Positions 2 through 63,722 of a stretch of DNA of 64,000 bases are shown in pieces. The position numbers and the translations under genes are program-made. Positions within the stretch are counted from its first letter, which is position 1, and every line of letters starts with the position of its first letter. The notes beneath the pieces were generated by a model, which made no database searches, had not been told where the DNA came from, and worked only from the letters and a program-made list of their open reading frames with translations. The DNA is from Paracidovorax wautersii (GTDB lineage Bacteria; Pseudomonadota; Gammaproteobacteria; Burkholderiales; Burkholderiaceae_C), in contig NZ_JAVIZX010000001.1 of assembly GCF_031453675.1 (NCBI RefSeq), forward strand, positions 2,874,001 to 2,938,000, given 5' to 3'.

Positions 2-472
2 GTCGCCACCGGCCAGCCCTGGGACGACGAGATGCGCGCGCGCATCGAGCGCCACCAGCGCGAACGCGCCGAACGCGTGCCCGGCCTGGCCACGCTGGAG
101 GAGCCGCGCGACCTTGCCGCCGCCCTGGCCCGGCACAGCCGCGCCGACACGCTGATCGTGGTGGACTGCCTGACGCTGTGGCTCACCAACTGGCTCATGC
201 CGATGGAATCATCCGAATCCAAGCCAAATAGGCCTCTAGCCCTTGACTGGAAAGCGCAGTGCGCTCTCTTTTTGGAAGCGGTTCAGGCCGCGCCCGGCCC
301 GGTGGTGCTGGTGGGCAACGAGATCGGCCTGGGCGTGATTCCTATGGGCCGCGAGGTGCGCGCCTTCGTGGATGCGCTGGGCGTGCTCAACCAGCGCGCG
401 GCCGCGGCCTGCGCGCGCGTGACGCTGGTGGCAGCAGGCCTGCCGCTGACGCTGAAGGACGAGGCGCCATGA
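2..472 (+). CDS. cobU: Adenosylcobinamide kinase/guanylyltransferase (5' partial)
   Basis: Bifunctional enzyme that phosphorylates adenosylcobinamide and transfers GMP to it in nucleotide-loop assembly of cobalamin. Only the last 156 codons are present, so the P-loop lies upstream of the window. The fragment opens with the ATGQPWDDEM segment typical of the family, then VVDCLTLWLTNW near residue 53 and NEIGLGVIPMGREVR near residue 107. Between these, bases 224-275 are a copy of a palindromic repeat found elsewhere in intergenic DNA, translated in frame as part of a linker that is normally shorter. The stop overlaps the btuF start as ATGA, indicating translational coupling. Function is secure; the effect of the insert is unknown. 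Confidence 0.93.
   Translation, partial: VATGQPWDDEMRARIERHQRERAERVPGLATLEEPRDLAAALARHSRADTLIVVDCLTLWLTNWLMPMESSESKPNRPLALDWKAQCALFLEAVQAAPGPVVLVGNEIGLGVIPMGREVRAFVDALGVLNQRAAAACARVTLVAAGLPLTLKDEAP
224..275 (-). repeat. Palindromic repeat copy inside cobU
   Basis: Read on the minus strand, the bases match the repeat seen intact at 34251-34300: a GAGAGC/GATAGC start, TGCGCTT, TCCAG, then GGGCTAGAGGCC and an ATTTGG end. It lies in frame inside cobU. The match was made by eye. Confidence 0.7.
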
Positions 473-1368: not shown

Positions 1369-2452
<1,084 letters not shown>

Positions 2453-2456
<4 letters not shown>

Positions 2457-3253
2457 GAAACATAGCTGTAAGCGCCCGTGGATTGGGCGTTAGCGTGCCA
2501 AATGGCTGGATACTGCAGGGCGTGGACCTGGCGCTGCCAGGGGGGCGCTGGACGGGCATCGTCGGGCCCAACGGGGCGGGCAAATCCACGCTGCTGAAGG
2601 CCTTGGCGGGCGTGCTGCCCGCAGCCCGCGTGCAGGGCGACGTCGCGCTCTTCGGCCGTCCGTTGCAGGCGCTGCCGGCCCGCGAGCGGGCGCAGCAGCT
2701 GGCCTGGCTGGGCCAGAACGAAGGCACGGCCGACGACCTGACGGCCTACGACGTGGCCATGCTCGGGCGCCTGCCGCATCAGCGCTGGATGGCGCCGCCC
2801 AGCGCGGCCGACCATGCCGCCGTCGAGGCCGCGCTGCGCACCACCCAGGCGTGGGACGGGCGGCACCGCCCGCTGGCGGAACTGTCCGGCGGCGAGCGCC
2901 AGCGCGTGCTGCTGGCCCGCGCCCTGGCGGTGCAGGCGGCGGTGCTGCTGATGGACGAGCCGCTCGCCAACCTCGATCCGCCCCACCAGTCCGACTGGCT
3001 GCAGACCGTGCGCGCCCTGGTGGCGCAAGGCACCACCGTGGTCAGCGTGCTCCATGAGATGTCGATGGCGCTGCAGGCCGACGACCTGGTGGTGCTGGCC
3101 GCCGGCCGCGTCGTGCACCACGGCGCCTGCGCCGACCCCGCCACCCATGCGGCGCTGGAGCAGGTGTTCGACCACCGCCTGCAGGTGCGCCAGATCGACG
3201 GCCAATGGATCGCGCTGCCGCGCGCCGCCAGCGCATCGCCTACGCTCTTGTGA
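2453..3253 (+). CDS. btuD: Cobalamin ABC importer ATP-binding protein
   Basis: 266-residue ATPase of the BtuD/FecE/HmuV type. It has Walker A GPNGAGKST at residues 38-46, signature LSGGERQRV at about 144-152 and Walker B VLLMDEP near 164-170. It energises uptake through the BtuC homologue. The start is the ATG overlapping the btuC stop by four bases. Codons 3-18 (bases 2461-2505) closely match the genome's palindromic repeat, so the first beta-strand region appears to derive from a repeat insertion. The ATPase assignment is firm; corrinoid specificity rests on context. Confidence 0.9.
2461..2505 (+). repeat. Palindromic repeat copy forming the btuD N-terminus
   Basis: The bases run CATAGCTG, AAGCGCCCGTGGAT, GGGCGTTAGCG, GCCAAATGG and align by eye with the copies at 34251-34300 (same strand) and 44126-44171 (opposite strand). 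It is translated in frame. Confidence 0.7.
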
Positions 3254-19737: not shown

Positions 19738-20772
19738 ATGGAAAGCCAACACCTGCGCGCCGTCCTGTCCATCAGCCTGATGGCGGCCTTTGCCGACGAA
19801 CACAAGGACGAGCGCGAACGCGACCACCTGCGCGACATGGCCGAATCGCTCAGCGCCGGCAGCGGCGTGGACCTGATGAAGCTGTACCAGGACGTGCTGC
19901 TGCAGCGCGTACGCCTGGAGGACGCCGCCGGCGCACTCGACACGCCTGCGCTGCGCCACCTGGCCTTCGAGATGGCCGTGGGCGTGTGCGATGCCGACGG
20001 CGTGTGCAATGCCAAGGAAAAGGCCTTCCTGCAGCGCCTGGCTGCCGCGCTGCAGGTGCCGGCGCCCGAGGCAGCGCAGGTGATCGAGCAGGCCGACGCG
20101 CTGGCCGATGTGCCGCTGCGCGCCGAGCCCGCACCGTCCGAGGCCTGGTCCGGCCCCACGGCCGCCGTGCCGATGGCGGTGGGGGGCGCGGCGGTTGCGG
20201 CAGCGGCTGCTGTGGCGGCTGCCTCGCCCGCCGGTGCCACCGTCAACGCCGCCTCGGTGAGCGATGCCGAGATCGACTCCATGATCCTGAACGCGTCCAT
20301 CCTCAACGGCGCGCTGGAGCTGCTGCCGCAGTCGCTGGCTTCCATGGCCATCATTCCGTTGCAGACGCGCCTGGTCTACCGCGTGGGCAAGGTCTATGGC
20401 TATGAGCTGGACAAGCGGCACATCGCCGACTTCCTGGCCACGGTGGGCGTGGGGCTCACCTCGCAGTACGTGGAGCAGTTCGGCCGCAAGCTGGTGGGCG
20501 GGCTGCTGGGCAAGGTGATGGGCGGCATGGGCCGTGCGGTGGGCAGCGCGGCCACGGGCTCGGCATTCTCGTTCGCCAGCACCTACGCGCTGGGCAAGGT
20601 GGCGCAGCGCTACTACGCCGGGGGCCGCACGCTGAGCACCGACGCGCTCAAGGCCTCGTTCTCGCGCACGGTGGACGAGGCCAAGGGCCTGCAGCAGCGC
20701 TATGCCCCGCAGATCCAGGAGCGGGCGAAGGGGCTGGACGTGGGCAAGCTGCTGCGCGAGCTCAAAGCCTGA
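19738..20772 (+). CDS. TerB-like plus DUF697-like protein
   Basis: 344-residue protein. Residues 1-130 are helical and resemble TerB/DjlA-type domains (SISLMAAFADEHKDERERDHL, FEMAVGVCDADGVCNAKEKAFL). An Ala-rich linker at about 140-170 follows. Residues 190-290 resemble the DUF697 domain of YcjF-type proteins (LVYRVGKVYGYELDKRHIADFLATVGVG), with Gly/Ala-rich, probably membrane-associated helices. The start ATG is the first in frame after a stop-free leader and matches the domain onset. Function is unknown; a stress or envelope role is only a guess. Confidence 0.8.
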   Translation: MESQHLRAVLSISLMAAFADEHKDERERDHLRDMAESLSAGSGVDLMKLYQDVLLQRVRLEDAAGALDTPALRHLAFEMAVGVCDADGVCNAKEKAFLQRLAAALQVPAPEAAQVIEQADALADVPLRAEPAPSEAWSGPTAAVPMAVGGAAVAAAAAVAAASPAGATVNAASVSDAEIDSMILNASILNGALELLPQSLASMAIIPLQTRLVYRVGKVYGYELDKRHIADFLATVGVGLTSQYVEQFGRKLVGGLLGKVMGGMGRAVGSAATGSAFSFASTYALGKVAQRYYAGGRTLSTDALKASFSRTVDEAKGLQQRYAPQIQERAKGLDVGKLLRELKA

Positions 20773-20773
20773 T

Positions 20774-20840
20774 TTGCTATTAAATAGATAGCCTCATGCG
20801 CTCCATTGGCGGGCGCTGGAGCCTTATTTAATGCAAATTC
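20774..20840 (+). repeat. Palindromic repeat copy
   Basis: AATAGATAGCCTCATGCGCTCC..GGGCGCTGGAGCC, ending just at the nth stop codon. Matches the 34251 copy. Confidence 0.65.
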
Positions 20841-21477
20841 AGGGCGCTGGCGTCTTGGGCTGGTAGTCGCAGTACGGCGCCACCGCGCACTCCCAGCAGC
20901 GCGGTTTGCGCGCCTGGCAGACGTAGCGGCCGTGCAGGATCAGCCAGTGGTGCGAGTCCACTGCGTACTCGGCCGGCACGCGCTTGAGCAACTGCATCTC
21001 CACCGCCAGCGGGTTCTTGCCCGGCGCCAGGCCGGTGCGGTTGCTCACGCGGAAGATGTGCGTGTCCACCGCCATGGTGGGCTGGCCGAAGGCCACGTTC
21101 AGCACCACGTTGGCCGTCTTGCGGCCCACGCCGGGCAGCGCCTCCAGCTCCTCGCGCGTGCGCGGCACCTGGCCGCCGTGCCGCTCCACGAGGATGCGGC
21201 AGGTCTCCATCAGGTGCCGCGCCTTGCTGCGGTACAAGCCGATGGTCTTGACGTAGCCCTCCAGCCCTTCCAGGCCCAGGTCGAGGATGGCCTGCGGCGT
21301 GCCCGCCGCCGGGAACAGCTTGCGCGTGGCCTTGTTGACGCCCACGTCCGTGGCCTGGGCCGACAGCAGCACGGCGGCCAGCAGTTCGAAGACGGTGGTG
21401 TATTCCAGTTCAGTGTTGGGCTGCGGATTGGCCGCCTTGAGCGTGGCGAAGAAAGGGACGATGTGCTCGGTCTTCAT
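20839..21477 (-). CDS. nth: Endonuclease III
   Basis: 212-residue DNA glycosylase/AP lyase that removes oxidised pyrimidines. Residue numbering coincides with E. coli: the helix-hairpin-helix LPGVGRKTANV has catalytic K120, D138 is in AVDTHIF, and the 4Fe-4S cluster cysteines are C187, C194, C197 and C203. The start was set at the Met that gives this register; longer in-frame starts add unconserved residues. The gene ends at a palindromic repeat. Confidence 0.96.
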   Translation of the reverse strand: MKTEHIVPFFATLKAANPQPNTELEYTTVFELLAAVLLSAQATDVGVNKATRKLFPAAGTPQAILDLGLEGLEGYVKTIGLYRSKARHLMETCRILVERHGGQVPRTREELEALPGVGRKTANVVLNVAFGQPTMAVDTHIFRVSNRTGLAPGKNPLAVEMQLLKRVPAEYAVDSHHWLILHGRYVCQARKPRCWECAVAPYCDYQPKTPAP

Positions 21478-21573
21478 GGTGGCGTGGGTATTTTTGTCGT
21501 TGCCTCGCATTGTGCTGCGCGGCCGGCCTGCTTCCTGCGCAGCGTCTCCAGGCACCTTCGGCGGCGGCTTCCT

Positions 21574-26895: not shown

Positions 26896-26908
26896 CCGGC
26901 ACGGTGTG

Positions 26909-27011
26909 CTATCGATAGCGGAGCTGTCTGCGCTTGATCAGTAAGCAATTCGAGGCGATTAATGCCTGAAAGCCAGAAGGATAAAGCGCAAGCTGCTCTC
27001 ATTTTTGATAG
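26909..27011. repeat. Inverted pair of palindromic repeat copies
   Basis: A plus-strand copy (ATCGATAGCGGAGCTGTCTG, then CGCTTGATC) is followed by a minus-strand copy ending AAGCGCAAGCTGCTCTC and TTTTTGATAG. The pair fills the gap between the aminotransferase and slyX. Confidence 0.65.
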
Positions 27012-27085
27012 TCCCCGCGGCGCACGCTGGAAGGGTTCTGCACCGACGGTGCCCCGGCAGCGCCGGCATGCGTTCCAATAGGGCC

Positions 27086-32740: not shown

Positions 32741-34150
32741 ATGAATACACCCGCCTCCCGCGCCGCTGGCGCCGTCTCTTCGCAGGCCGACAGCGGCTTC
32801 AGCTACACCCGTCCCTTCTTCGCAGACCTGGTCGATCGGGCCCTGGCCCATGCCAAGAAACTGGGTGCGACCGACGCCGGGGCCGAGGCGTCCGAAGGCT
32901 GCGGCCTGTCGGTGAGCGTGCGCAAGGGCGAGCTGGAGACGGTGGAGCGCAACCGCGACAAGTCGCTGGGCGTGACGGTCTACATCGGCAACCGCCGCGG
33001 CAATGCCAGCACCTCGGACTTTTCCGACCAGGCCATCGAACGCACCGTGCAAGCGGCCTACGACATCGCCCGCTTCACGGCCGAAGACCCCGTGGCCGGC
33101 CTGCCCGATGCGGCCGACATCGCGCCCGAGGACACGCACCGCGAGCTGGACCTGTTCCATCCCTGGGCGCTGACCAGCGAAGAGGCGGCCCGCCTGGCGC
33201 TGGAATGCGAAGCCGCTGCGCTGCAGACGCACAAGCGCATCACCAACAGCGAAGGCGCGGGCGTGTCGGCCCAGCAGAGCCATTTCTTCAGCGCGCACAC
33301 GCGGGGTTTCCGCGGCGGCTATGCCAGCTCGCGCCACAGCATGTCGGTGGCGCCCATCGCCTCGCTGCCCGGCCGGAATGCCGAGATGCAGCGCGACGCC
33401 TGGTACAGCTCCATGCGCGACGCCTCCGAGCTGGCTGCGCCGGAGCGCATCGGCCGCTACGCCGCCCAGCGCGCCCTGGCCCGCCTGGGCAGCCGCAAGA
33501 TACCGACCACGCAGTGCCCCGTGCTGTTCGAGTCGCCGCTGGCCGCGGGCCTGCTGGGCGCCTTCGTGCAGGCGGTGAGCGGCGGCTCGCTCTACCGCAA
33601 GAGCAGCTTTCTGCTGGACTCGCTGGGCAAGACCGTGTTCCCCAAGCACATCGACCTGCTGGAAGACCCCTTCGTGCTGCGCGGCAAGGGCAGCTCGCCG
33701 TTCGACGAAGAAGGCGTGCGCGTGGCTGCGCGCCGCGTGGTCGATGCCGGGCGGGTGGAGGGCTACTTCCTGTCGAGCTACTCGGCGCGCAAGCTGGGCA
33801 TGAAGACCACCGGCAACGCCGGCGGCTCGCACAACCTGGTGCTGAGCTCGCGCCGCACCCGCGCCGGCGACGACCTGGACGCCATGCTGCGCAAGCTGGG
33901 CACGGGCCTGTTCGTGGTCGAGCTGATGGGCCAGGGCGTGAACTACGTGACGGGTGACTACTCGCGCGGCGCCAGCGGTTTCTGGGTGGAGAACGGCGAG
34001 ATCGCCTTCCCGGTGCACGAGATCACCATCGCGGGCAATCTGAAGGACATGTTCAAGGGCATCGAGGCCGTGGGTGCCGACGCCTACAACTACGGCGCCA
34101 AGACGGTCGGCTCCATCCTGGTCAACCGGATGAAGGTGGCGGGGAGCTGA
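32741..34150 (+). CDS. pmbA: TldE/PmbA-type metalloprotease subunit
   Basis: 469-residue PmbA/TldE partner of the heterodimeric TldD/TldE protease, which processes modified peptides and CcdA in other bacteria. Motifs include AEASEGCGLSVSVRKGELETVE, YSSMRDASELAAPE and the C-terminal NYVTGDYSRGASGFWVENGEIAFPVHEITIAGNL split over residues 405-440. The TldD partner with the metal motif is not in the window. A strong terminator follows. Confidence 0.92.
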   Translation: MNTPASRAAGAVSSQADSGFSYTRPFFADLVDRALAHAKKLGATDAGAEASEGCGLSVSVRKGELETVERNRDKSLGVTVYIGNRRGNASTSDFSDQAIERTVQAAYDIARFTAEDPVAGLPDAADIAPEDTHRELDLFHPWALTSEEAARLALECEAAALQTHKRITNSEGAGVSAQQSHFFSAHTRGFRGGYASSRHSMSVAPIASLPGRNAEMQRDAWYSSMRDASELAAPERIGRYAAQRALARLGSRKIPTTQCPVLFESPLAAGLLGAFVQAVSGGSLYRKSSFLLDSLGKTVFPKHIDLLEDPFVLRGKGSSPFDEEGVRVAARRVVDAGRVEGYFLSSYSARKLGMKTTGNAGGSHNLVLSSRRTRAGDDLDAMLRKLGTGLFVVELMGQGVNYVTGDYSRGASGFWVENGEIAFPVHEITIAGNLKDMFKGIEAVGADAYNYGAKTVGSILVNRMKVAGS

Positions 34151-34212
34151 GGCACCCCGCGGCCGAACCCGGGCTGGAGGCCCCGGCCGGCAACCGGACA
34201 GAGAAAGACAAA

Positions 34213-34236
34213 GGGCTCCCATCGGGAGCCCTTTTT
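34213..34236 (+). terminator. Rho-independent terminator of pmbA
   Basis: Stem GGGCTCCC/GGGAGCCC, loop ATC, then TTTTT. 63 bases after the pmbA stop. Confidence 0.92.
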
Positions 34237-34250
34237 CATGTTTTGCTACA

Positions 34251-34300
34251 TGATTGATAGCTGCTTGCGCTTATCCAGCAAGCGCAAGAGGCCGATTGGG
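34251..34300 (+). repeat. Palindromic repeat, best intergenic copy
   Basis: TGATTGATAGCTGCTTGCGC, TTATCCAGCAAGCGCAAGAG, GCCGATTGGG. The inner inverted pair is TTGCGCTT/AAGCGCAA. It serves as the reference for the other copies. Confidence 0.8.
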
Positions 34301-34324
34301 CCTTGAATGGGCTCCGCGCGGCCG

Positions 34325-36010
34325 TCAGCGCTGCTTCGCCAGCGCCGCATCGCGGATGCCGTCCAGCGTGCCCGTGGGCGTGATGGCCTGGGCGTCCAGC
34401 AGGCAGTGCAGTACCGCAGGCAGGCCGCTGGCACGGGCGCGGGCCAGGGCGGGGGCGAAGTCTTCCGTGCGCTCCACGCGCTCGCCGTGCCCGCCGAAAG
34501 CCACGGCGTAGGCCTTGAAGTCGGGGTTCTTCAGCATCGTGGCGCTGACGCGGCCGGGGTACTCGCGCTCCTGGTGCATGCGGATGGTGCCGTACATGGC
34601 GTTGTCCAGCAGCACCACGAGGATGGGCAGGCCGTACTGCACGGCGGTGGCGAACTCCTGGCCGTGCATCAGAAAGTCGCCGTCGCCCGCAAACACGACG
34701 ACCTCGCGCTGGGGCCACAGGCGCTTGCCGCCCACGCCCGCCGGCAGGCCGTAGCCCATGGAGCCGCTGGTGGGCGCCAACTGGCTGGCGTAGGTGGTGA
34801 AGGGCCAGAAGCGGTGGATCCAGGTGGCGAAGTTGCCGGCGCCGTTGCAGAAGATGGTGTCGGCGGGCAGCACCTCCTTCAGGTGCTGCATCACCGCGCC
34901 CATCTGCAGCGTGCCGGGAATGCGGATGGGGGCCGGGTCGCTCCAGGCGAGGTATTCGGCGTGCGCCGCGGCCGTGTGTTCGGCCCAGCGCACCGGCGCC
35001 GTGGGCCGCACGCCCGCCAGCGCGGCGGTAAAGGCCTGCGGCGTGGCGTGGATGGCCTGGGCGGGGCGGTACAGGCGGCCCAGCTCGTCGGCATCGGCAT
35101 GCACATGCACCAGTCGCTGCTGCGGCACGGGAATGTCGAACAGCTCGAAGCCCTGCGACGGAATCTCCGACAGCCGCCCGCCCACGACGAGCACCAGGTC
35201 GCTCGCGCGGATGCGCGCCAGCAGCTTGGGGTTCACGCCCAGGCCCAGGTCGCCGCCGTAGTGGGGGTGGGTGTGCGGGAACAGCATCTGCCGGCGGAAC
35301 GAGCAGTACACGGGCAGGCTCCAGGCCTGGGCGAAGGCGACGAAGTCCTGCACGGCGCGCTCGGACCAGCGGCTGCCGCCCAGGATGGCGACCGGGCGTT
35401 CGGCCTGCGAAAGGCGCTCGGCCAGTTCCTGCAGCGCGGCCGCGCCGGGGTGCGTCTCGGGCACGGTGTAGGGCAGGGCGTCGGCCACCTGCACGGCGTC
35501 GGTCAGCATGTCTTCCGGCAGCGCGATCACCACGGGGCCGGGGCGGCCGGACGTGGCGACGTGGAAGGCCCGCGAGACCAGCTCGGGCACGCGGCGTGCG
35601 TCGTCGATCTGCACCACCCACTTGGCCATGGTGCCGAAGACGGCGGGGTAGTCCAGCTCCTGGAAGGCCTCGCGGCCCAGCGCGCCGCGCGCCACCTGGC
35701 CCACGAAGACGATGAGCGGCGTGGAGTCCTGGTGCGCGATGTGGATGCCGGCAGACGCATTCGTGACGCCCGGCCCGCGCGTCACGAAGCAGATGCCGGG
35801 GCGCCCGGTGAGCTTGCCCTGCGCCTCGGCCATCATGGCCGCGCCGCCTTCCTGGCGGCAGACGGTGACGCCGAGCTGCGCGTCATGCAGCGCGTCCAGC
35901 ACGGCCAGATAGCTTTCGCCGGGTACGCAGAAGAGCTGCTGCACGCCGTGCAGGATGAGCTGGTCGACGAGGATCTGGCCGCCGGTGCGGGAGGTAAGGG
36001 CTGGGTTCAT
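34325..36010 (-). CDS. Thiamine diphosphate-dependent enzyme, acetolactate synthase-like
   Basis: 561-residue ThDP enzyme. N-terminal PYR domain with catalytic E54 (CRQEGGAAMMAE), central nucleotide-binding-like domain, and C-terminal PP domain with GDGDF..LLDN near residues 441-468. It resembles the ALS/benzoylformate-decarboxylase/glyoxylate-carboligase group; the substrate is not evident, and there is no small regulatory subunit nearby as for biosynthetic acetolactate synthase. It lies 127 bases downstream of the ALDH7-type gene on the same strand, so a catabolic pair is likely. Confidence 0.87.
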   Translation of the reverse strand: MNPALTSRTGGQILVDQLILHGVQQLFCVPGESYLAVLDALHDAQLGVTVCRQEGGAAMMAEAQGKLTGRPGICFVTRGPGVTNASAGIHIAHQDSTPLIVFVGQVARGALGREAFQELDYPAVFGTMAKWVVQIDDARRVPELVSRAFHVATSGRPGPVVIALPEDMLTDAVQVADALPYTVPETHPGAAALQELAERLSQAERPVAILGGSRWSERAVQDFVAFAQAWSLPVYCSFRRQMLFPHTHPHYGGDLGLGVNPKLLARIRASDLVLVVGGRLSEIPSQGFELFDIPVPQQRLVHVHADADELGRLYRPAQAIHATPQAFTAALAGVRPTAPVRWAEHTAAAHAEYLAWSDPAPIRIPGTLQMGAVMQHLKEVLPADTIFCNGAGNFATWIHRFWPFTTYASQLAPTSGSMGYGLPAGVGGKRLWPQREVVVFAGDGDFLMHGQEFATAVQYGLPILVVLLDNAMYGTIRMHQEREYPGRVSATMLKNPDFKAYAVAFGGHGERVERTEDFAPALARARASGLPAVLHCLLDAQAITPTGTLDGIRDAALAKQR

Positions 36011-39608: not shown

Positions 39609-40595
39609 ATGGCCATCCAGTGGTTTCCCGGTCACATGCACAGCACGCGCAAGGCGATCGGCGAGCGCATCAAGGACATCGACGTGGTGATCGAGCTGCT
39701 GGACGCCCGCCTGCCGGGCTCCAGCCGCAACCCGCTGCTGGCCGAGCTGACGGGGCATAAGCCGTCGGTGAAGGTGCTCAACAAGCAGGATGTGGCCGAC
39801 CCCGCGCGCACGCCGCTGTGGCTGGACTGGTACAACGCGCAGGAGGGCATCCGCGCCATCGGCCTGGATGCCTCCGAGCCCGCCCCGGCGCGCCGCCTCA
39901 TCGACGCCTGCCATGCGCTCGCGCCGCAGCGCGGCGGCATGGCCAAGCCCATGCGGGTGCTGATCTGCGGCATTCCCAACGTGGGCAAGTCCACGCTCAT
40001 CAACACGCTCAGCAAGAAGAGCCAGGCCAAGACGGGCGACGAGGCCGGCATCACCAAGCTGGAGCAGCGCATCACCCTGGCCGACGACTTCTATCTGTGG
40101 GACACGCCCGGCATGCTGTGGCCGCGCATCACCATCCCGCAAAGCGGCTACAAGCTGGCCGCCAGCGGGGCCGTGGGCAAGAACGCCTACGACGAGGAAG
40201 AGGTGGCGCTGGAACTGCTGGCCTACCTCAAGCAGCCCTACGCGCCGCTGCTGGAGGCCCGCTACAAGCTGGGGCTGAGCCCGGCGGCCATCGACGCCTT
40301 GCGGGAGGAAGAGCTGCTGGAGGCCATCGCCCGCAAGCGCGGGGCGGTGATGTCCGGCGGGCGCGTCAACCTGCAGAAGGCCGCCGAGCTGGTGATGACC
40401 GACCTGCGCAGCGCCGTCCTGGGCCGCATCACGCTGGAGACGCCGGCCGAGTTCGAGGCGTGGTGCACCGAGTCCGAGGCACTGGAGGCCGAACGCTCGG
40501 CCAAGAAGGCCGCCCGCGAGGCGCGCAAGGGCGGGCGCAAGCGGAGCGGTGCACCGGCGGGCGGCGCGGATTCGGAGGCCGGCGAAGAGTCTTGA
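39609..40595 (+). CDS. ylqF: Ribosome biogenesis GTPase YlqF/RbgA
   Basis: 328-residue circularly permuted GTPase that assists 50S assembly. The G4 motif NKQD (residues 57-60) precedes G1 GIPNVGKST (near 123-131) and G3 DTPG (near 165), the permuted order. The N-terminal WFPGHMHSTRKAI is diagnostic. The C-terminal tail from about 290 is Lys/Arg/Glu-rich. The gene ends against a palindromic repeat. Confidence 0.94.
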   Translation: MAIQWFPGHMHSTRKAIGERIKDIDVVIELLDARLPGSSRNPLLAELTGHKPSVKVLNKQDVADPARTPLWLDWYNAQEGIRAIGLDASEPAPARRLIDACHALAPQRGGMAKPMRVLICGIPNVGKSTLINTLSKKSQAKTGDEAGITKLEQRITLADDFYLWDTPGMLWPRITIPQSGYKLAASGAVGKNAYDEEEVALELLAYLKQPYAPLLEARYKLGLSPAAIDALREEELLEAIARKRGAVMSGGRVNLQKAAELVMTDLRSAVLGRITLETPAEFEAWCTESEALEAERSAKKAAREARKGGRKRSGAPAGGADSEAGEES

Positions 40596-40650
40596 TGAAA
40601 AACGGCTCCAGCGCCCGTCCTGACTTCGCAGTCAGCTATTGAATTGATAG
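40596..40650 (-). repeat. Palindromic repeat copy
   Basis: On the minus strand CTATCAATTCAATAGCTGAC, then GGGCGCTGGAGCCGTTTTTC, directly after the ylqF stop. Confidence 0.65.
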
Positions 40651-40685
40651 TTGGTCTGGTGTGGTGGCCCCGCGGCCTGTGCGCC

Positions 40686-40781: not shown

Positions 40782-43643
40782 TCACCAGCGGATCGGTGCG
40801 TCCTCGCCGTGCCAGAAGATCAGCCGCCAGGCCTCGGCAAAGCGCGAGGTGCCGGCGGCGAACGGATCCAGCCCCGGCCCCTTGCGCAGCAGCACCAGGT
40901 AGCCGCCGCGGCTGCCCGCCACCAGCGTGCGCCCGTCGCGCGCCATGTCGAGGCCGCACAGTGCGCCGCCGCCGACAGGGTGGCGCCACAGTCCGGGGCC
41001 GGAGGCGGGGCGGTCCTGCAGATCGGCCCGCAACCCTCCGTTTCCGTCGCCACGCACCACCAGGCCTTGGGCGGTGGCTGTGGGCGCATCGCCCGCTGCC
41101 GGCCACGCAAGGCCGGCGGGCGCAGCCCCGTCAGCAGGCGGCACGCGCTGAACGCCTGTGGCATCCGTGCGGTAGAGGTGGCCGCTGCGGGTGCGCAGCA
41201 GCGCGGATTGGCCGTCGTCGCTGGGCAGGATCTGCGTAGGCCCAGCGGCGGCGGTCGCTGCGCCGTCCTCTTCCCCTGCGTTCGGCCCATCGTCCGAGAG
41301 GGCTTCCGCGGGCATCGGCAGGCGGGCCAGCACGGGGCCGTCCCAGCCCTCGCGCATGGTCAGGACGCCGTCACCGGCGTCTATGGCGAAGCAGGTGCGT
41401 GATGCCGACCGGCCCACGCTGCGCACACCGTCCAGCGGCTGCACCTGCAGCCCGTCCGCGCTGGCACGCAGCCACTGCGCAGCCTGGTCCTGGGCGGGGG
41501 CGATGCGCGCCACGATGGTGCCGCCGTCCAGCAGAAACACCGGGCCCACCGCCCGCCCCGCGGCGGCGGCGTGGCCGGCAAAGGCCTCGGGGGCGAAGGC
41601 GAACCGGTGGTGCAGGCGCGCGGCCAGGTCCGCATCGGCATGGCGGCTGACCACGCGCGCCAGCTGCAGCACGGTGTCGGCGCGGTGGCGGCGGGCGTCC
41701 TCCGGCCAGGGCGGCAACGCACCACCGCCGCTGCCCGGCGCGGCGGCCTCGGACTCGGACTCGGACTCTGCGGCTAGGCGGGCACGCACCTGCGCTACGA
41801 AGGCCCGGCCATCGGCCTGCCAGGCGTCGGACGCGGCCAGCAGCGCGGTGGGGAGGACCGCGTCGTCTGGCAGGTGCGGGGCGAAGGGCGGTGTGCGGAG
41901 CAGCTGTACCTCGGCGGCGATGCGGCGGGCCTCGGCGTCGCGCGCTGCGGGCTGGGCGCTGGTCTGCTCCAGGCGCTGCGCGATCCCGGCAAACAGCCGC
42001 AGCAGCCGCGCCGTGTGGTCCACGGCATGCAGCGGCAGGGGCACGCGCTCGTCGCCCTGCCGCTGGGCATAGGTGATGCGCAGGGCCGGGCGGCCTGCGC
42101 CATCGCGTTCGATGTCGATCTGGTAGCTGGCCAGCGTGTCGTCATCCGCGTCGCCCGGGCCCGGGGGGCCGTTCTCCCAGCTGAGCTTGAGCGCACGCCC
42201 CCAGCGCCTGCCGTGGCGCACGCAGGGCTGGCGCGCACCGACCCACAGATCGCCCTCCCACCAGCCGTTGCGCTCGCTGTCCCACCAGTCGTCGTACTGC
42301 GCGGTGAAGACGGGCCGCAGCGTCAGCGCCTCGGCGCGTGCCGGTGTCAGTTCGGCCAGCAGGCGCTGGTGCAGCGGGTGCCCGGCGCGGCGCTGGCCTT
42401 CGGCCTTGCGCCAGTAGTCGACCACGCCCTGCCAGGCCAGCGCGCAGGCCTGCAAGGCTTCGGTGGGTGCCGCCGCCTGCGGTCCGGCGAGCGGCTGCCA
42501 GGCACCGGGGCGGCCATCGGCGCCGTAGGCGCGGAACAGCTGGGCGAATCCGGGCGCCAGGGCTGGCGCCGTGCGGCGCCAGGGCGCGGCGGCCAGACGG
42601 CGCACGCCCGCCGCCGCGGCCCCCAGCAGGCTGCGCGCCTCGGGGGCGGGCACGTCGGAGAACCAGAAATCCCAGGCCTTCCACTCGGTGAGAAAGAGCC
42701 CGTCGTGGTAGGTGTCGCCATCCTCGTCCTGGTGGCGGCGCGTGAGCAGGAAGTCGGTCTGCCCGAACCAGCCCTGGGCCTTGTGCCGGGTCTTGTCGGG
42801 CAGGGCGGCGCGCAGCAGCTGGTGCAGCTGCGCCAGCGTGGGCGCGGGGCCTGGGCAGAGGGCGGCATCCATCGGGAGTTGCGCCTCGGGGTCCCCTCGC
42901 AGCACCGGCTCGCCGGCCTGCAGTGCGGCGCGCAGGCGGGGCAGATCGACCAATGCGCTGACGCTGTCGGGCGCCGGCGCCATGGGCTGCAGAAGCCCAG
43001 GCACCAGCCGCAGTGCCAGGGCTTCATGGGCCAGCGCGGCGTGGCGTGGGTCTTGCCGGGCGGCATCCAGGCACAGGCCGATGTGCTTCTCCCCTGGAAG
43101 CTGCACGCGCACGCCAGACGTGAACACGGCCACGGCGGCTTTTAAGGTGCCGTGCACGGCCAGGGCGGCGGGCGGCGCGTGCGCTGCAGCGTTTGCATCG
43201 ACAGACGCGTCCTCTGGGCCGTCCCCGCACCACAGGAGGCCGGCCACCTGCAGGCGGCCCTCCACCTCGACGGCGGCATCGCCCGAGAGCAAAGCGTGAC
43301 CGCACGACAGGTCGCCGCGTACGTACAGCGCACAGCCGGCGGGTGTGCTGGGAGCGATGAGCGCGCCTGCGACGCGCAGCGCGCCCTGTACCAGCAGCAG
43401 ACACGGTGCGGCCGGCGCGTCGGCGCCTCCCGCGGGCAGGGAGTCAGCCAAGCCGGCCAGCGGCGCCTGCAGATCGAGCGACGCCAACTCCAGATCTCCG
43501 TGCACCTGCAATACCCACGCATGGTCGTGCCCGACGGCGGATGCCTCGGCGCGTGCCATCAGGGCCTGCGACAGCGCATGGCCAGCCGGAAAGGCCGCGG
43601 CGGCTTCGTACAGGGGAATAAGCGTGGCGTGGGACAGGGGCAT
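40782..43643 (-). CDS. 953-residue protein with repeat N-terminus, function unknown
   Basis: Large protein not assigned to a named family. Residues about 40-190 contain short repeats of the form hydrophobic-x-G-x-L (VHGDLELAS, VQGALRVAG, VRGDLSCGH, VEGRLQVAG, VHGTLKAAV), suggesting a beta-solenoid like polymer-forming cytoskeletal proteins. The central part is Trp-rich (TEWKAWDFWF, DDWWDSERNGWWEGDLW). A Ser-Glu run is near residue 625. Residues about 690-953 have beta-propeller-like strands (GHLYRTDATG, DMARDGRTLVAGSRGGYLVLL). No signal peptide or membrane helix. The frame is consistent throughout; role unknown. Confidence 0.72.
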   Translation of the reverse strand: MPLSHATLIPLYEAAAAFPAGHALSQALMARAEASAVGHDHAWVLQVHGDLELASLDLQAPLAGLADSLPAGGADAPAAPCLLLVQGALRVAGALIAPSTPAGCALYVRGDLSCGHALLSGDAAVEVEGRLQVAGLLWCGDGPEDASVDANAAAHAPPAALAVHGTLKAAVAVFTSGVRVQLPGEKHIGLCLDAARQDPRHAALAHEALALRLVPGLLQPMAPAPDSVSALVDLPRLRAALQAGEPVLRGDPEAQLPMDAALCPGPAPTLAQLHQLLRAALPDKTRHKAQGWFGQTDFLLTRRHQDEDGDTYHDGLFLTEWKAWDFWFSDVPAPEARSLLGAAAAGVRRLAAAPWRRTAPALAPGFAQLFRAYGADGRPGAWQPLAGPQAAAPTEALQACALAWQGVVDYWRKAEGQRRAGHPLHQRLLAELTPARAEALTLRPVFTAQYDDWWDSERNGWWEGDLWVGARQPCVRHGRRWGRALKLSWENGPPGPGDADDDTLASYQIDIERDGAGRPALRITYAQRQGDERVPLPLHAVDHTARLLRLFAGIAQRLEQTSAQPAARDAEARRIAAEVQLLRTPPFAPHLPDDAVLPTALLAASDAWQADGRAFVAQVRARLAAESESESEAAAPGSGGGALPPWPEDARRHRADTVLQLARVVSRHADADLAARLHHRFAFAPEAFAGHAAAAGRAVGPVFLLDGGTIVARIAPAQDQAAQWLRASADGLQVQPLDGVRSVGRSASRTCFAIDAGDGVLTMREGWDGPVLARLPMPAEALSDDGPNAGEEDGAATAAAGPTQILPSDDGQSALLRTRSGHLYRTDATGVQRVPPADGAAPAGLAWPAAGDAPTATAQGLVVRGDGNGGLRADLQDRPASGPGLWRHPVGGGALCGLDMARDGRTLVAGSRGGYLVLLRKGPGLDPFAAGTSRFAEAWRLIFWHGEDAPIRW

Positions 43644-44000: not shown

Positions 44001-44125
44001 GGGTGGGTCCTCCTTGGAGTCAATGGCGCCTGCGGGGTGCAGGGCGTCGCGGACTCCATTACAGGGCAAGGGGCAGCCTCGGCCCTGTCAGAAATCACGC
44101 CCGTTTCGGTTGGAAACAAATGGAG

Positions 44126-44171
44126 GGCAAAAACGGCTGCAGCGCCCGTGGATGGTGCGCAAGCTGCTATG
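44126..44171 (-). repeat. Palindromic repeat copy
   Basis: On the minus strand CATAGCAGCTTGCGCACCAT, CCACGGGCGCTGCAGCCG, TTTTTGCC; close to the copy in btuD. It ends at the 3' edge of the MFS gene. Confidence 0.7.
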
Positions 44172-45402
44172 TATTTTGCGCTTCCGGACGGCGCGCCAGC
44201 CGCGCGTCGTGAACCATGGCCAGGCCGTTCAGCAAGGCCACGCCGGCGCCCGCCACGCAGGTCGCACCCCAGCCGCCGTGCTGCCACGCCCACGAGCCCA
44301 GCGCGGAGCCGCCGGCCGCGCCCGCGAAGTAGGTCGTCATGTAGACGGCATTCAGGCGCGAGCGTGCCTCGGGCGCCAGCTGGTAGATCACGTTCTGGTT
44401 GCTGATGTGCACGCCCTGTAGGGCCAGATCGATCAGCAGCATGCCCAGCAAGAACGCCACCAGGCTGCCGCCGCCCAGCCACAGCAGCGCCCAGCTGCCC
44501 AGCACCAGCAGCACGGACACGCGGGTGGTGAGCTGCTCCAGGCCGCGGTCCGCCAGGCGCCCGGCGGCGTTGGCCATGAGCGCACCCGCCACGCCGGCCA
44601 GGCCCACCAGCCCGATGTGCACGTCGCTCAGGCGGTGCGCGGGCCCGGCCAGCATCAGGGCCATGGTGGAGAACAGCACGCTCACCGAGCCGAACGAGAG
44701 CCCGCCCAACAGCGCACGGCTGCGCAGGCGCGGATGGCGCCGCGCCAGCGTGCCCAGCGAACGCAGCACCTGCGCGTAGCTGGGGGCCTGCGGGTTGCGC
44801 AGGGCGGGCAGCGCAAACCACAGCGCCACCGCCACGGCGAGCATGGCCACGCCGGCGACGCGGTACACCAGATTCCAGCCGCCCAGTCCCGACAGCAGGC
44901 CCGCCACGCTGCGCGCCGCGAGGATGCCGGTGAGCAGCCCGCTCATCACCAGCCCTACGGCCTGGCCGCTGCGCCCCGGCGCGGCCAGCGCCGCGGCCAT
45001 GGGCACCAGCACCTGCGCCGCCACGGAGAACAGGCCCGTCATGAGCGTGCCCAGGGCGAGCATCGCGAACCCCTGCGCGAAGCCGCTGAGGAACAGGCCG
45101 ACGGCCGCCAGCACGATGAGCGCCACGATCAGCCGGCGGCGCTCCAGCTTGTCGCCCAGCGGCACCAGCAGGAGCAGGCCCAGCGCATACGACACCTGGG
45201 CCAGCGTGACGGTGAGCGCGGCCGTCGCCTCGCTGACACGCAACTGCATGGCGATCGAGTGCAGTAGGGGCTGGTTGTAGTAGTTGGAGCCCGCGCACAG
45301 GCCGCAGGCGGCGGCCATCAGCAGCAGCACGGGGGTGGACAGGCCTGCGGCGGCCGCGGGGGCAGGAGAGGAGGAGGGAGCAGAGGACAAACGGGACGGC
45401 AT
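44167..45402 (-). CDS. MFS efflux transporter, probable SoxR target
   Basis: 411-residue major-facilitator transporter with about 12 helices. Start of helix 1 is STPVLLLMAAACGLCAGSNYYNQPLLHSIA, a feature of the YnfM/AraJ-like drug efflux branch; loop 2-3 has PLGDKLERRRLIV. The start at MPSRLSS is not supported by a Shine-Dalgarno; an in-frame ATG 36 bases upstream is possible. It follows the RidA-family gene by 71 bases and probably shares its SoxR-controlled promoter, suggesting export of redox-active compounds. Confidence 0.83.
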   Translation of the reverse strand: MPSRLSSAPSSSPAPAAAAGLSTPVLLLMAAACGLCAGSNYYNQPLLHSIAMQLRVSEATAALTVTLAQVSYALGLLLLVPLGDKLERRRLIVALIVLAAVGLFLSGFAQGFAMLALGTLMTGLFSVAAQVLVPMAAALAAPGRSGQAVGLVMSGLLTGILAARSVAGLLSGLGGWNLVYRVAGVAMLAVAVALWFALPALRNPQAPSYAQVLRSLGTLARRHPRLRSRALLGGLSFGSVSVLFSTMALMLAGPAHRLSDVHIGLVGLAGVAGALMANAAGRLADRGLEQLTTRVSVLLVLGSWALLWLGGGSLVAFLLGMLLIDLALQGVHISNQNVIYQLAPEARSRLNAVYMTTYFAGAAGGSALGSWAWQHGGWGATCVAGAGVALLNGLAMVHDARLARRPEAQNT

Positions 45403-59582: not shown

Positions 59583-60215
59583 TCAGCCCTGCCACTGGCC
59601 CGGTGCGAGTCCGTCCAGCGCGTACGGCCCGATGGCCGCGCGGATGAGGCGCAGCGTAGGGAACCCCACGGCCGCCGTCATACGGCGCACCTGGCGGTTG
59701 CGGCCCTCGCGGATGGCCAGCTCGATCCACGCGGTGGGGATGTTCTTGCGCTCGCGGATGGGCGGGTCGCGCTCCCACACGGTGGGCGGCGGGTCCATCA
59801 GGCGCGCGCGGGCCGGGCGCGTGGGGCCGTCGTTCAGCGGCACGCCGTGGCGCAGCGCTGCGATGGCGTCGTCGCCGGGCGAGCCCTCCACCTGCACCCA
59901 GTAGGTCTTCTCCATCTTGAAGCGCGGGTCGGCGATGTGCGCCTGCAGCTTGCCGTCATCGGTCAGCAGCAGCAGGCCTTCGCTGTCCGCATCCAGCCGG
60001 CCGGCCACATACACGCCGGGCACGTCGATGAATTCCTTGAGGCCCTTCCACCGCCCCTCCGGGGTGAATTGGCTCAGCACCCCGTAGGGCTTGTGGAAGC
60101 GGATCAGCCGGGCCGGCGCGCGCTCCACGGCGGGCGCGGGCCGCGCCGGTGCCGCGCCCGTGCGCTGGATCTGCAGGCGTGGGCGGGGCGGTCGGTCGGC
60201 AGGGTTTTGGGTCAA
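59583..60215 (-). CDS. rluE: RsuA/RluE-type pseudouridine synthase, TTG start
   Basis: 210-residue rRNA pseudouridine synthase. Catalytic D75 is in [15 protein letters not shown]; other motifs are [12 protein letters not shown] and [23 protein letters not shown]. The lack of an S4 domain matches RluE (23S rRNA Psi2457). No ATG or GTG precedes the conserved region in frame; the start is TTG at 60215, with GGAG six bases upstream. Both lie in a palindromic repeat copy (60212-60269). The first 33 residues are Pro/Arg-rich and unconserved. Confidence 0.85.
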
Positions 60216-60269
60216 ATTGGGCTCCAGCGCTTTATCAGAAATCGCATGTAGCTATTAAAATAATAGCAA
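60212..60269 (-). repeat. Palindromic repeat copy at the rluE start
   Basis: On the minus strand AATAGCTACATGCGATTTCTG, AAAGCGCTGGAGCCCAATTTG. It supplies GGAG and the TTG start of the RluE-type gene. Confidence 0.68.
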
Positions 60270-60271
60270 TA

Positions 60272-61168
60272 TCAGGCGGCGATGAAGAGGGCCGGGTCCA
60301 CCATGGTGCGGTTCAGCATCACGCCCCAGTGCAGGTGCGGGCCGGTCACGCGGCCGGTGGCGCCGACCTTGCAGAACGCCTGGCCGGTGGCGAGCACGTC
60401 GCCCACCTGCACGTCCATGCGGCTGAGGTGGCAGTACATGGTGAGCAGGCCGCCGCCGTGGTCCAGCCAGACCGTGCCGCCGTTGAAGAAATAGTCGCCC
60501 ACGTCGATCACCCTGCCGGGCAGCGGCGCCACCACGGGCGTGCCGGTGGCGGCCGCGATGTCCATGCCGCTGTGTGGATTGCGCGCCTGGCCGTTGAAGA
60601 CGCGGCGCAGACCGAACGAGCTGGAGCGGCGCCCCGGTACCGGCACGCGCATCTGCAGATCGGCCGCGCGGGGCAGCGGGGTTGAGAAGGTGGCCATCAC
60701 CGTGCGCTGGTGGTCACGCTCGCGCTCGTAGCGGGCGTTGTCCTCGGCGGACAGGTCGACCGTGCGCGGGGCCACGTTCAGGCGCTGCTCGCTGTATTTC
60801 TTGGCGGCTACCTGGTAAGCCAGCGTGCGCGGTGCCTCGCCGGCGACCTCCACGCGGATCTCCGCGGGCCCGACGGGCGCGGCCAGAGGGATGCCCACCA
60901 GGGCCGTCCATTCGATCATGTCGCCCAGCACCAGCAGGGGCACGTCGCCGGCCTGCGCGGTGGGCCGCTGCGCCGCCGGACCGAGCGACAGGCGCGCCAC
61001 GCCGCCCGGCACCTGGAGCGGATGCGGCCAGACCTGGGCGCCTGCCGGTGCAGCGGCCCAGGCCGCGGGCACCGCCGCAAGGGCCGCACCGGCGCCGGCT
61101 GCCCGCAGCAGGGTGCGGCGGTGTGCGGACAGGGGCAGGGCGGAGGCGGGGAAGGGGGGAAGCGTCAT
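60272..61168 (-). CDS. M23 family metallopeptidase with signal sequence
   Basis: 298-residue LytM/peptidase-M23 protein. A signal with twin arginines (AHRRTLLRAAGAGAALAAVPA) covers the first about 40 residues. The metal site is formed by NPHSGMDIA near residues 195-203 and GPHLHWG near 274-280, with YCHLSRM between, so the enzyme looks active. It would cleave peptidoglycan cross-bridges in the periplasm. ATG 61168 precedes the signal; it ends two bases from the repeat at the rluE start. Confidence 0.88.
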   Translation of the reverse strand: MTLPPFPASALPLSAHRRTLLRAAGAGAALAAVPAAWAAAPAGAQVWPHPLQVPGGVARLSLGPAAQRPTAQAGDVPLLVLGDMIEWTALVGIPLAAPVGPAEIRVEVAGEAPRTLAYQVAAKKYSEQRLNVAPRTVDLSAEDNARYERERDHQRTVMATFSTPLPRAADLQMRVPVPGRRSSSFGLRRVFNGQARNPHSGMDIAAATGTPVVAPLPGRVIDVGDYFFNGGTVWLDHGGGLLTMYCHLSRMDVQVGDVLATGQAFCKVGATGRVTGPHLHWGVMLNRTMVDPALFIAA

Positions 61169-62341: not shown

Positions 62342-63628
62342 ATGTCACGCTCCCGCCGCAGCACCATGCTGATTGCCTTCCTGACCTTCATCGCCACGGT
62401 CGCCCTGGTGCTCGTCGCTCTCAACTTCACGGCCGGCGAGAAGAAGGTGCAGCAGCAGCTGCCGCGGCTGTACACCACCGCCAGCCCGCAGTTCGAGCGG
62501 GCGTTGGGCAGCCTGCTCGGCCCCGGTGTGCTGCCGGGCAACGAGGTGGTGGAGCTGCTCAATGGCGACCAGATCTTTCCGCCCATGCTGGCGGCCATCC
62601 AGGCGGCGCAGAAGAGCGTCACTTTTGAAACCTACATCTACTGGTCGGGCGACATCGGCAAGCGGTTCGCCGATGCGCTGGCCGAGCGCGCGCGGGCCGG
62701 CGTCAAGGTGCATGTGCTGCTCGACTGGGTGGGCAGCGCCAAGATGGAGGAAAGCTACCTCACCGAGATGAAGAACGCCGGCGTGGAGATCGAGAAGTTC
62801 CACAAGCCCCACTGGTACAACCTGGCGCGGCTGAACAACCGCACCCACCGCAAGCTGCTCGTCACCGACGGGCAGGTGGGCTTCACGGGCGGGGTCGGCA
62901 TTGCGCCCGAGTGGACCGGCAACGCGCAGGACCCGGAGCATTGGCGCGATTCGCACTACCAGGTGCGCGGGCCGGTGGTGGCGCAGATGCAGGCCACCTT
63001 CCTGGACAACTGGCTCAAGGTGACGGGCGAGGTGCTGCATGGCGAAGAGTATTTCCCCCAGCTCGACGCCGTGGGGCCGCACCGCGCGCAGATGTTCTCC
63101 AGCTCGCCGTCGAGCGGCAGCGAGAGCATGCAGCTGATGTACCACCTGGCCATCACGGCGGCCGAGCGCACCATCGATCTGTCGGCGGCGTACTTCGTGC
63201 CCGACGAACTCACGCGCAAGCTGCTGCAGGACGCGCTGGCGCGCGGCGTGCGCCTGCGGCTCATCACGCCGGGCGAGCACACCGACACCGAGACGGTGAA
63301 GGCCGCCTCGCGCGGCACCTGGGGCGAGCTGCTGCGTGCCGGCGCCGAGATCTACGAATACGAGCCCACCATGTACCACTGCAAGGTGATGATCGTGGAC
63401 GGGCTGCTGGTCTCCGTGGGCTCCACCAACTTCGACAACCGCTCGTTCCGCCTGAATGACGAGGCCAACCTCAACGTGTACGACGCCGCCTTCGCGCAGC
63501 GGCAGACCGCCGTGTTCGAGGCCGATCTGCAGCGCTCGCGCCGCGTGACGCTGGAGGCCTGGGAGAACCGCCCCTGGACCGAGCGGGCCATGGAGCGCGT
63601 CACACGGCTGCTGGAAGCGCAGCTGTGA
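62342..63628 (+). CDS. Phospholipase D/cardiolipin synthase-like protein
   Basis: 428-residue PLD-superfamily membrane protein. N-terminal transmembrane helix at about residues 7-30, then two HKD motifs: H169/K171/D176 (HRKLLVTD) and H346/K348/D353 (HCKVMIVD). It resembles cardiolipin synthase ClsB/ClsC-type enzymes acting on phosphatidylglycerol, but the substrate is not certain. ATG 62342 is chosen over 62333 because a GACAAT hexamer overlaps the latter. Confidence 0.88.
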   Translation: MSRSRRSTMLIAFLTFIATVALVLVALNFTAGEKKVQQQLPRLYTTASPQFERALGSLLGPGVLPGNEVVELLNGDQIFPPMLAAIQAAQKSVTFETYIYWSGDIGKRFADALAERARAGVKVHVLLDWVGSAKMEESYLTEMKNAGVEIEKFHKPHWYNLARLNNRTHRKLLVTDGQVGFTGGVGIAPEWTGNAQDPEHWRDSHYQVRGPVVAQMQATFLDNWLKVTGEVLHGEEYFPQLDAVGPHRAQMFSSSPSSGSESMQLMYHLAITAAERTIDLSAAYFVPDELTRKLLQDALARGVRLRLITPGEHTDTETVKAASRGTWGELLRAGAEIYEYEPTMYHCKVMIVDGLLVSVGSTNFDNRSFRLNDEANLNVYDAAFAQRQTAVFEADLQRSRRVTLEAWENRPWTERAMERVTRLLEAQL

Positions 63629-63666
63629 TTGGATCGGCCGCCGGCGCCCGCCAATCCAGCGCAGGC

Positions 63667-63722
63667 TGCTATCAAATTTGAGTAGGGAAGCGCGTCTGTC
63701 CGGCAGGTGCGCGCTCGGGGCC
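63667..63722 (+). repeat. Degenerate palindromic repeat copy
   Basis: GCTATCAAATTTGAGTAGGG, AAGCGCGTCTGTCCGGCAGG, TGCGCGCTCGGGGCC; the most diverged copy, after the phospholipase-type gene. Confidence 0.45.

Follow-up and report, generated by a model that had tools for sequence, protein, structure and literature searches.

The window, a stretch of 64 kb from Paracidovorax wautersii, is part of a 4.57 Mb chromosome of the GTDB genus Paracidovorax. Between the gene 32741-34150(+) and the convergent gene 34325-36010(-) it carries a copy of a palindromic repeat at 34240..34312(+), which is located 3′ of the former gene and scores highest of all window copies with a profile built from copies outside the window (54.2 bits; 68.7 bits with a covariance model). 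This copy folds as three small hairpins (-26.0 kcal/mol), the middle stem being CTTGCGCTT-ATCCAGC-AAGCGCAAG, followed by AGGCC-GATTG-GGCCT. Just upstream, at 34210..34234(+), a separate stem resembling an intrinsic terminator is present, which does not belong to the element.

Further copies were placed on both the + and the - strand by the covariance model, in agreement with the initial annotation, which had described the repeat in both orientations (scores in brackets are those of the covariance model, followed by the outside-copy profile). One copy at 60200..60272(-) is located 3′ of gene 60272-61168(-) (69.6/50.7 bits), one at 20771..20843(+) lies amid the convergent genes 19738-20772(+) and 20839-21510(-) (57.7/33.0 bits), and one at 40584..40656(-) is found directly 3′ of gene 39609-40595(+) in the convergent gap before 40782-43643(-) (45.2/27.7 bits). 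The copies at 44115..44187(-) (37.2/25.4 bits) and 63617..63691(-) (34.1/29.3 bits) overlap the 3′ end of gene 44167-45330(-) and the stop of gene 62366-63628(+), respectively. A copy at 212..284(-) (50.2/37.0 bits) lies within a cobU-like gene (2-472, +) with the open frame kept, and a degenerate copy at 2445..2507(+) (26.9/18.1 bits) is situated around the start of a frame that ends at 3253 and by eye looks like an ABC-type ATPase. The locus at 26903..27017 represents a long composite form (26903-26976(+)/26944-27017(-); profile 20.8 and 16.3 bits), in which two inverted 5′ halves surround a central hairpin and which folds mostly as one hairpin of 115 nt (-41.6 kcal/mol). The composite form was also seen at L031 3561-3635, L039 18321-18385, L057 17975-18036 and L044 19452-19519; apart from such inverted pairs the listed copies are dispersed.

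The consensus of 86 copies, TTGCTATNNAATTNATAGCTGCTTGCGCTTGNTGNANAAGCGCTGGAGGCCNATTTGNCT, has a GC content of 48% and consists of GCTAT-loop-ATAGC, a GCGCTT-loop-AAGCGC core and GGCC-ATTT-GGCTT. The start originally proposed, GATAGCTG, is indeed present, but it is located in the interior, after GCTATTNAATT, and the element extends over ~65 bp rather than ~50 bp. In columns 18-21, before the stem, ATAG was found in 66 of the 86 copies, GTAG in 12, AGAG in five, GGAG in two and TGAG in one, and AGC at columns 20-22 is invariant (86/86). In the standard form the two ends do not make up an inverted repeat, and the consensus carries no CGTC motif. Among copies of the genome of the window such as L002 and L008, both GATGGAT and the reverse complement ATCCATC occur as the 7-base loop, as if it were inverted in some of them. 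Comparison with Rfam gave no family at gathering score in the window, and for six loci with copies no more than microRNA models below threshold, all of them in L307.

The repeat family is real. A profile of 79 copies outside the window, which together with seven window copies make up the 86 aligned, recovered all nine loci proposed for the 64 kb, as 10 matches of 16.3-54.2 bits, since the locus at 26909 is an inverted pair; in 100 dinucleotide-preserving shuffles of the window no match reached 10 bits. As the 79 copies had been chosen with a profile iterated over sequence including the window, the independence of this test is incomplete. When a profile was built without iteration from 27 outside copies with an exact core, four loci reached at least 12 bits, compared to none in shuffles. 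The iterated profile yielded 145 matches with E<0.01 in 864 kb compared to none in the reversed sequence, and 104 of these remained after removal of strand and overlap duplicates. Of 110 deduplicated matches, the alignment includes the 86 that lie within the stretch with E<=1e-3 and a model end >=47; the palindromic duplicates L027 and L029 were dropped, as were the 10 kb that L052 shares with L033. All 86 rows, including the seven window copies, entered the covariance model that placed the copies of the window.

In 20 roughly evenly spaced stretches (400 kb in total) 45 loci were detected at E<=0.05, corresponding to ~514 per genome, so that we estimate ~500 copies per genome. A strict pattern matched the genome of the window 38 times and a broader one 239 times, palindromic copies being counted on both strands, and the reversed-pattern controls gave no match in either case. 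Of the 250 genomes and 141 genera of the GTDB family, 30 and 19, respectively, carried the strict pattern (reversed control 0), whereas it was found in none of the 366 sampled genomes of the class outside the family; in the genomes sampled the repeat is thus restricted to one bacterial family. The strict pattern misses divergent versions, as is evident from G088 of the same genus with one strict match but at least 150 matches to the covariance model. The earlier suggestion that similar palindromic motifs are common in Comamonadaceae was borne out: among 36 genomes reached via RAYT loci, 14 carried the strict pattern, including members of Diaphorobacter, Acidovorax, Paenacidovorax, Simplicispira and Comamonas. 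The highest counts of the 36 were obtained for an Acidovorax MAG (93), Diaphorobacter nitroreducens (42) and Paenacidovorax caeni (38), followed by Simplicispira metamorpha and Comamonas suwonensis (21 each), and the pattern was absent from the sampled Variovorax, Pseudorhodoferax, Hydrogenophaga and Massilia. Consensus matches with E<=0.01 occurred in two plasmids and in no phage record. Duplicate genomes (G265=G250, G292=G213) were left out. The 17 Paracidovorax genomes split into eight with at least 148 covariance-model matches, the scoring being capped at 150, and nine with 3 to 38. As a separate observation, G015 (L071) contains 187 strict copies together with 20 Y1 transposase matches, several of them as split frames.

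Genes were classified with a codon model that was initialised with fixed amino-acid frequencies and then retrained on the genes it called. Among gaps of at least 70 bp, an element was contained in only three of 90 divergent ones, in 51 of 276 co-directional ones and in 24 of 65 convergent ones (p=9e-6 and 0.002). Coding sequence, which makes up 86% of the DNA, holds no more than 12 of the 104 copies. The 64 co-directional copies were nearer to the upstream stop than to the downstream start in 42 cases (p=0.017), with median distances of 24.5 bp and 64 bp, respectively; their orientation relative to the genes was not significantly biased (39 versus 25, p=0.10). Copies prefer convergent gaps and 3′ ends and avoid divergent gaps. 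A similar layout is reported in PMC5217627 for the intergenic copies of a motif fragment of Acidovorax ebreus, 44 of which are convergent, four divergent and 59 co-oriented.

Some copies lie inside conserved genes. In uvrA the element is inserted in frame at one site in seven of 22 aligned loci (E<=1e-5) from five genera, namely Paracidovorax (the genome of the window, G088 and G263), Diaphorobacter, Paenacidovorax, g141 and g16. Of 28 distinct loci, 24 had been submitted to this comparison, and G120 and G072 failed the motif. The uvrA gene of G260 carries the insert in a decayed form, and the other 13 of 17 Paracidovorax genomes have a shorter linker without the element. An in-frame palindromic insert absent from other orthologues, comparable to Rickettsia palindromic elements, was thereby found in uvrA. 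In purL an antisense element occurs at one site in nine of 28 loci with E<=1e-5 and in 19 of 28 with E<0.01, values that refer to a very small search space, and the 28 loci do not differ in length at this site. The PurL protein of the genome under study is seven residues longer at the element site than the best solved chains, e.g. 1t3t of Salmonella. Both the uvrA and the purL copies are old. The peptides encoded by the element in UvrA and PurL show that repeats of this kind can be incorporated durably into conserved enzymes. The cobU-like protein is 11-14 positions longer than family profiles and longer than three of seven solved homologues but approximately equal in length to the other four, and the copy was not retained as a clear insertion. 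The intragenic matches in MurD (E=1e-4) and TrpF (E=0.05) showed no clear insertion and may be due to chance.

To what extent copies keep their position was analyzed with 400 kb each of two congeneric species, G262 and G257, whose aligned DNA is 86.7% identical; the stretches had been chosen around one site already known as shared. Out of 36 elements of G262, 27 were mappable to G257, and 25 of these 27 sites carried the element there; in the reverse direction an element was present at 25 of 26 sites. With 25 of 27 mappable sites common to both species, these copies are old and position-stable, and in the species pair compared they are largely immobile. At two further loci the element was found by eye at the same site in nine and eight of 11 Paracidovorax species. 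For the copy 3′ of gene 32741-34150, similarity stops at or near the gene end in 16 relatives and no empty site was found among them; for a plasmid region of Comamonas sp. C11 no other plasmid spanning the element was found. As a side observation, L059 11743-13514 contains 1.3-1.8 kb that are 97% identical to G257 and G258; this is well beyond the identity seen in general, and the stretch is possibly a shared mobile element or rRNA.

Sequence conservation between the two species is uneven along the element. In 23 in-register pairs the ungapped identity amounted to 0.97 for the arms, 0.67 for the core and 0.85 for the right arm, compared to 0.45 and 0.57 for the flanks; with a gapped aligner and 25 pairs, 0.815 was obtained for the element and 0.74-0.75 for 40-bp flanks. 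The commonest core in G262 and G257 is of another type (TATATGCCCTAGTGGTATATGCGC in G257), and such species-specific cores raised concerted evolution as an explanation. Nevertheless, identity was higher for the 23 orthologous pairs (0.80) than for paralogues (0.64 and 0.67) or for non-orthologous copies of the two species (0.64); with two pairs out of register included, the same four classes gave 0.76, 0.58, 0.66 and 0.61. Because orthologous copies resemble each other more than the other classes do, concerted evolution is at most partial, and it was rejected.

Compensatory changes in the stem, proposed with the initial annotation as a check of the family, turned out to be weak among paralogues and strong at one orthologous site. 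In the 86 paralogues, 47 cells were changed on both sides compared to 34.4±5.7 in shuffled alignments (18 of 500 shuffles as high), RNAalifold returned no consensus structure, and scanning all column pairs revealed no clear stem de novo. At one orthologous convergent site aligned from 11 species, by contrast, a 17-bp stem had 86.1% of its cells paired versus 74.0±1.6 in shuffles (0 of 500), slid versions of the stem paired in only 27-46%, and 10 pairs were changed on both sides versus 5.3±1.4 (1 of 500). Of five measures at this site one was unremarkable, with 16 further pair types compared to 14.1 (96 of 500). The hairpin at this site has thus been kept by compensatory changes across the 11 species. 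The copy tested is of a symmetric form with A- and T-tracts and resembles a bidirectional terminator. In general, folding indicates a modest excess of structure in elements over control gaps, with a mean z of -1.25 compared to -0.70 for 100 control segments (p=0.002).

The literature searched contains no name or function for the element, in line with the initial annotation, which knew of none. Two motif pairs, GCTTAT(N)5AAGCG of Acidovorax ebreus and ATAGCT(N)22CAAAAG of Polaromonas naphthalenivorans with 114 and 125 copies, were listed in 2017 as unexplained "potential novel motifs" (PMC5217627). They match parts of the present element and, judged by their sequence, probably represent it, although the accessible portion of that paper gives them without a described element, mutual link, age or structure. 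The accessible passages of PMC2755013 concern CRISPR only, and a term search of PMC12306157 gave no match. A repeat that is abundant in a widespread environmental family has no name in the literature searched and no Rfam match at gathering score in the window.

By description the element resembles several known repeats. GTAG-tagged REPs are dispersed imperfect palindromes of 20-40 bp with up to hundreds of copies per genome (PMC2817692, PMC3733652, as far as accessible). Like these, the present element lies mainly after genes, in convergent and co-directional gaps, with some copies inside genes such as uvrA, but it is ~65 bp long with an extra AT-rich hairpin, and instead of GT(A/G)G at the 5′ foot of the stem it mostly has ATAG. 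Since CGTC at one end, which defines CGTC-REPs, is lacking as well, the repeat belongs to neither of the two REP tag classes described; Acidovorax, Polaromonas, Delftia, Comamonas and Rhodoferax are not mentioned in the main text of PMC3733652. REPINs (PMC3116915, in the part available) are inverted doublets and in this respect like the composite form with its two inverted halves around a spacer, whereas the present element mostly has ATAG heads and composites are a minority form. The BRE repeats of Bordetella and other Betaproteobacteria (75-91 bp with 69% GC, in tandem in some cases, and listed in PMC3110155 with no more than 29 copies per genome) are also dispersed, occur in Comamonadaceae and have some intragenic copies; compared by description, the present element differs in length, GC content, its hundreds of copies and the lack of tandem arrangement. 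Rickettsia palindromic elements are palindromic repeats situated in frame inside conserved genes. They belong to another bacterial class, and, likened to them by description, the present element differs in that most copies are intergenic.

The repeat appears to be a variant of the palindromic repeats known from bacteria, one that is old and stable in position. We consider it probable that it is an untagged REP-like repeat of one family, which multiplied long ago and now occupies fixed inherited sites, chiefly 3′ of genes. A short non-autonomous, hairpin-forming DNA would have multiplied in ancestors of the Comamonadaceae, possibly by single-strand hairpin transposition through a RAYT or IS200-type enzyme, and in the species pair compared the copies would have been passed on vertically at fixed places, chiefly just 3′ of genes. 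Copies that are transcribed may form a hairpin at the 3′ end of the mRNA, which might stabilise this end, and might therefore be tolerated or kept; the symmetric A-A′ form with its A- and T-tracts may end transcription from both sides. Based on placement and one well-tested site, a putative role as 3′-end hairpin is most likely the function, being the best supported. Shared sites could also result from neutral retention of old insertions; the gapped identity of the element, 0.815, exceeds that of the flanks (0.74-0.75) only modestly. Conserved sites together with compensatory changes make it possible to separate "selfish relic" from "useful 3′-end signal" for hundreds of copies.

A further-reaching version, which appears possible though rather unlikely, is that of an immobile 3′-end element with several hundred copies kept by selection on arms and pairing while the core turns over between species. 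It would act as a signal, post-transcriptional or in DNA architecture, that is dispersed over the genome and read by a putative recognition protein of its own.

A classical REP/RAYT system, in which a RAYT of the genome recognises and moves the hairpins and co-evolves with them, we hold to be unlikely. A single protein of the genome matches PF01797; NCBIfam classifies it as a RAYT (NF047646, 81.7 bits with a cut-off of 80), and an element copy precedes its start by ~80-105 bp. Of 20 element matches in 80 named RAYT loci, eight were located within 150 bp of the RAYT gene, and in seven loci (L103, L110, L116, L119, L120, L143, L162) the RAYT stop codon is separated from a motif flanking the gene by an element or a remnant of it; the cores that differ between species would fit co-evolution as well. 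Against this stands the comparison with other genes of the same loci, in which RAYT flanks were not enriched: downstream 4/79 versus 7/214 at 20 bits (p=0.34) and 8/79 versus 12/214 at 8 bits (p=0.14), upstream 2/78 versus 7/227. A copy within 500 bp was found in only seven of the 80 loci, two of them with copies on both sides and one of these two inverted, and the RAYT gene between two inverted copies, as described for GTAG-REPs, is not the general arrangement of these loci. PF01797 matches occurred in 20 of 22 genomes regardless of element number, and the draft genome G141 with 32 strict copies had none. RAYT genes have a flanking motif of their own (ATGTCCC..AATTAA and TCTGACCC..AATTA in six of 20 loci, the only placeable ones), which, judged from its sequence, resembles the GGGGWSAS repeats of TIRYTs (PMC3733652; subclass 2.1 in PMC6006769). 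The head of the element, ATAG in most copies and GTAG in only 12, also argues against it. GTAG-REPs have a cognate RAYT; for the present element a RAYT as cognate mobiliser, suggested by the copies near RAYT genes, was not supported in view of the missing enrichment and of PF01797 being present in element-poor genomes and absent from the element-rich G141. The flanking motif was seen downstream of the RAYT gene in L080, L140, L148, L154, L160 and L162.

In addition to the old REP-like repeat that we favour, it is conceivable, but quite doubtful, that the arms (GCTATTNAATTNATAGC, GCGCTGG) form a genome-wide binding site at which a nucleoid or regulatory protein recognises the DNA, with the core freer to vary. 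The nearly identical arms of the two species, the more variable core, the stable positions and the invariant AGC would agree with such a site. On the other hand, the strict pattern is absent from 220 of the 250 family genomes, which would be unusual for a nucleoid site, and the compensatory pairing at the orthologous site takes in the core.

Ordinary look-alike intrinsic terminators would likewise be expected at 3′ ends, and symmetric copies such as G000:C1:2645070-2645116, which with its orthologues has A- and T-tracts on both sides and a stem of up to 17 bp, do have the features of an intrinsic terminator. Typical copies, however, showed a GC-rich stem directly followed by a T-run no more often than controls (7/104 compared to 15/192), and this simple terminator scan does not support termination as a general function. 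In gaps with an element a separate terminator was not significantly rarer (2/14 versus 10/29; 2/38 versus 20/163), and the copy at 34240 itself already lies behind a terminator-like stem. Since homology moreover extends over the whole element including the AT-rich hairpin outside the stem, we regard this explanation as very unlikely. A MITE of a DDE insertion sequence, which the many short copies and the patchy copy number between species might suggest, is highly improbable, as the standard form lacks terminal inverted repeats; neither a parent element nor a target duplication came to light among the copies analyzed.

The element-poor Paracidovorax genomes G253 and G256 carry a different sequence at two orthologous places (L308 2023-2092, L311 2024-2093, L325, L326). 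It shares the GCTAT/GCTAC..ATAGC arm, continues with a stretch containing CAATG and CGGCATG, and is perhaps a third subfamily.
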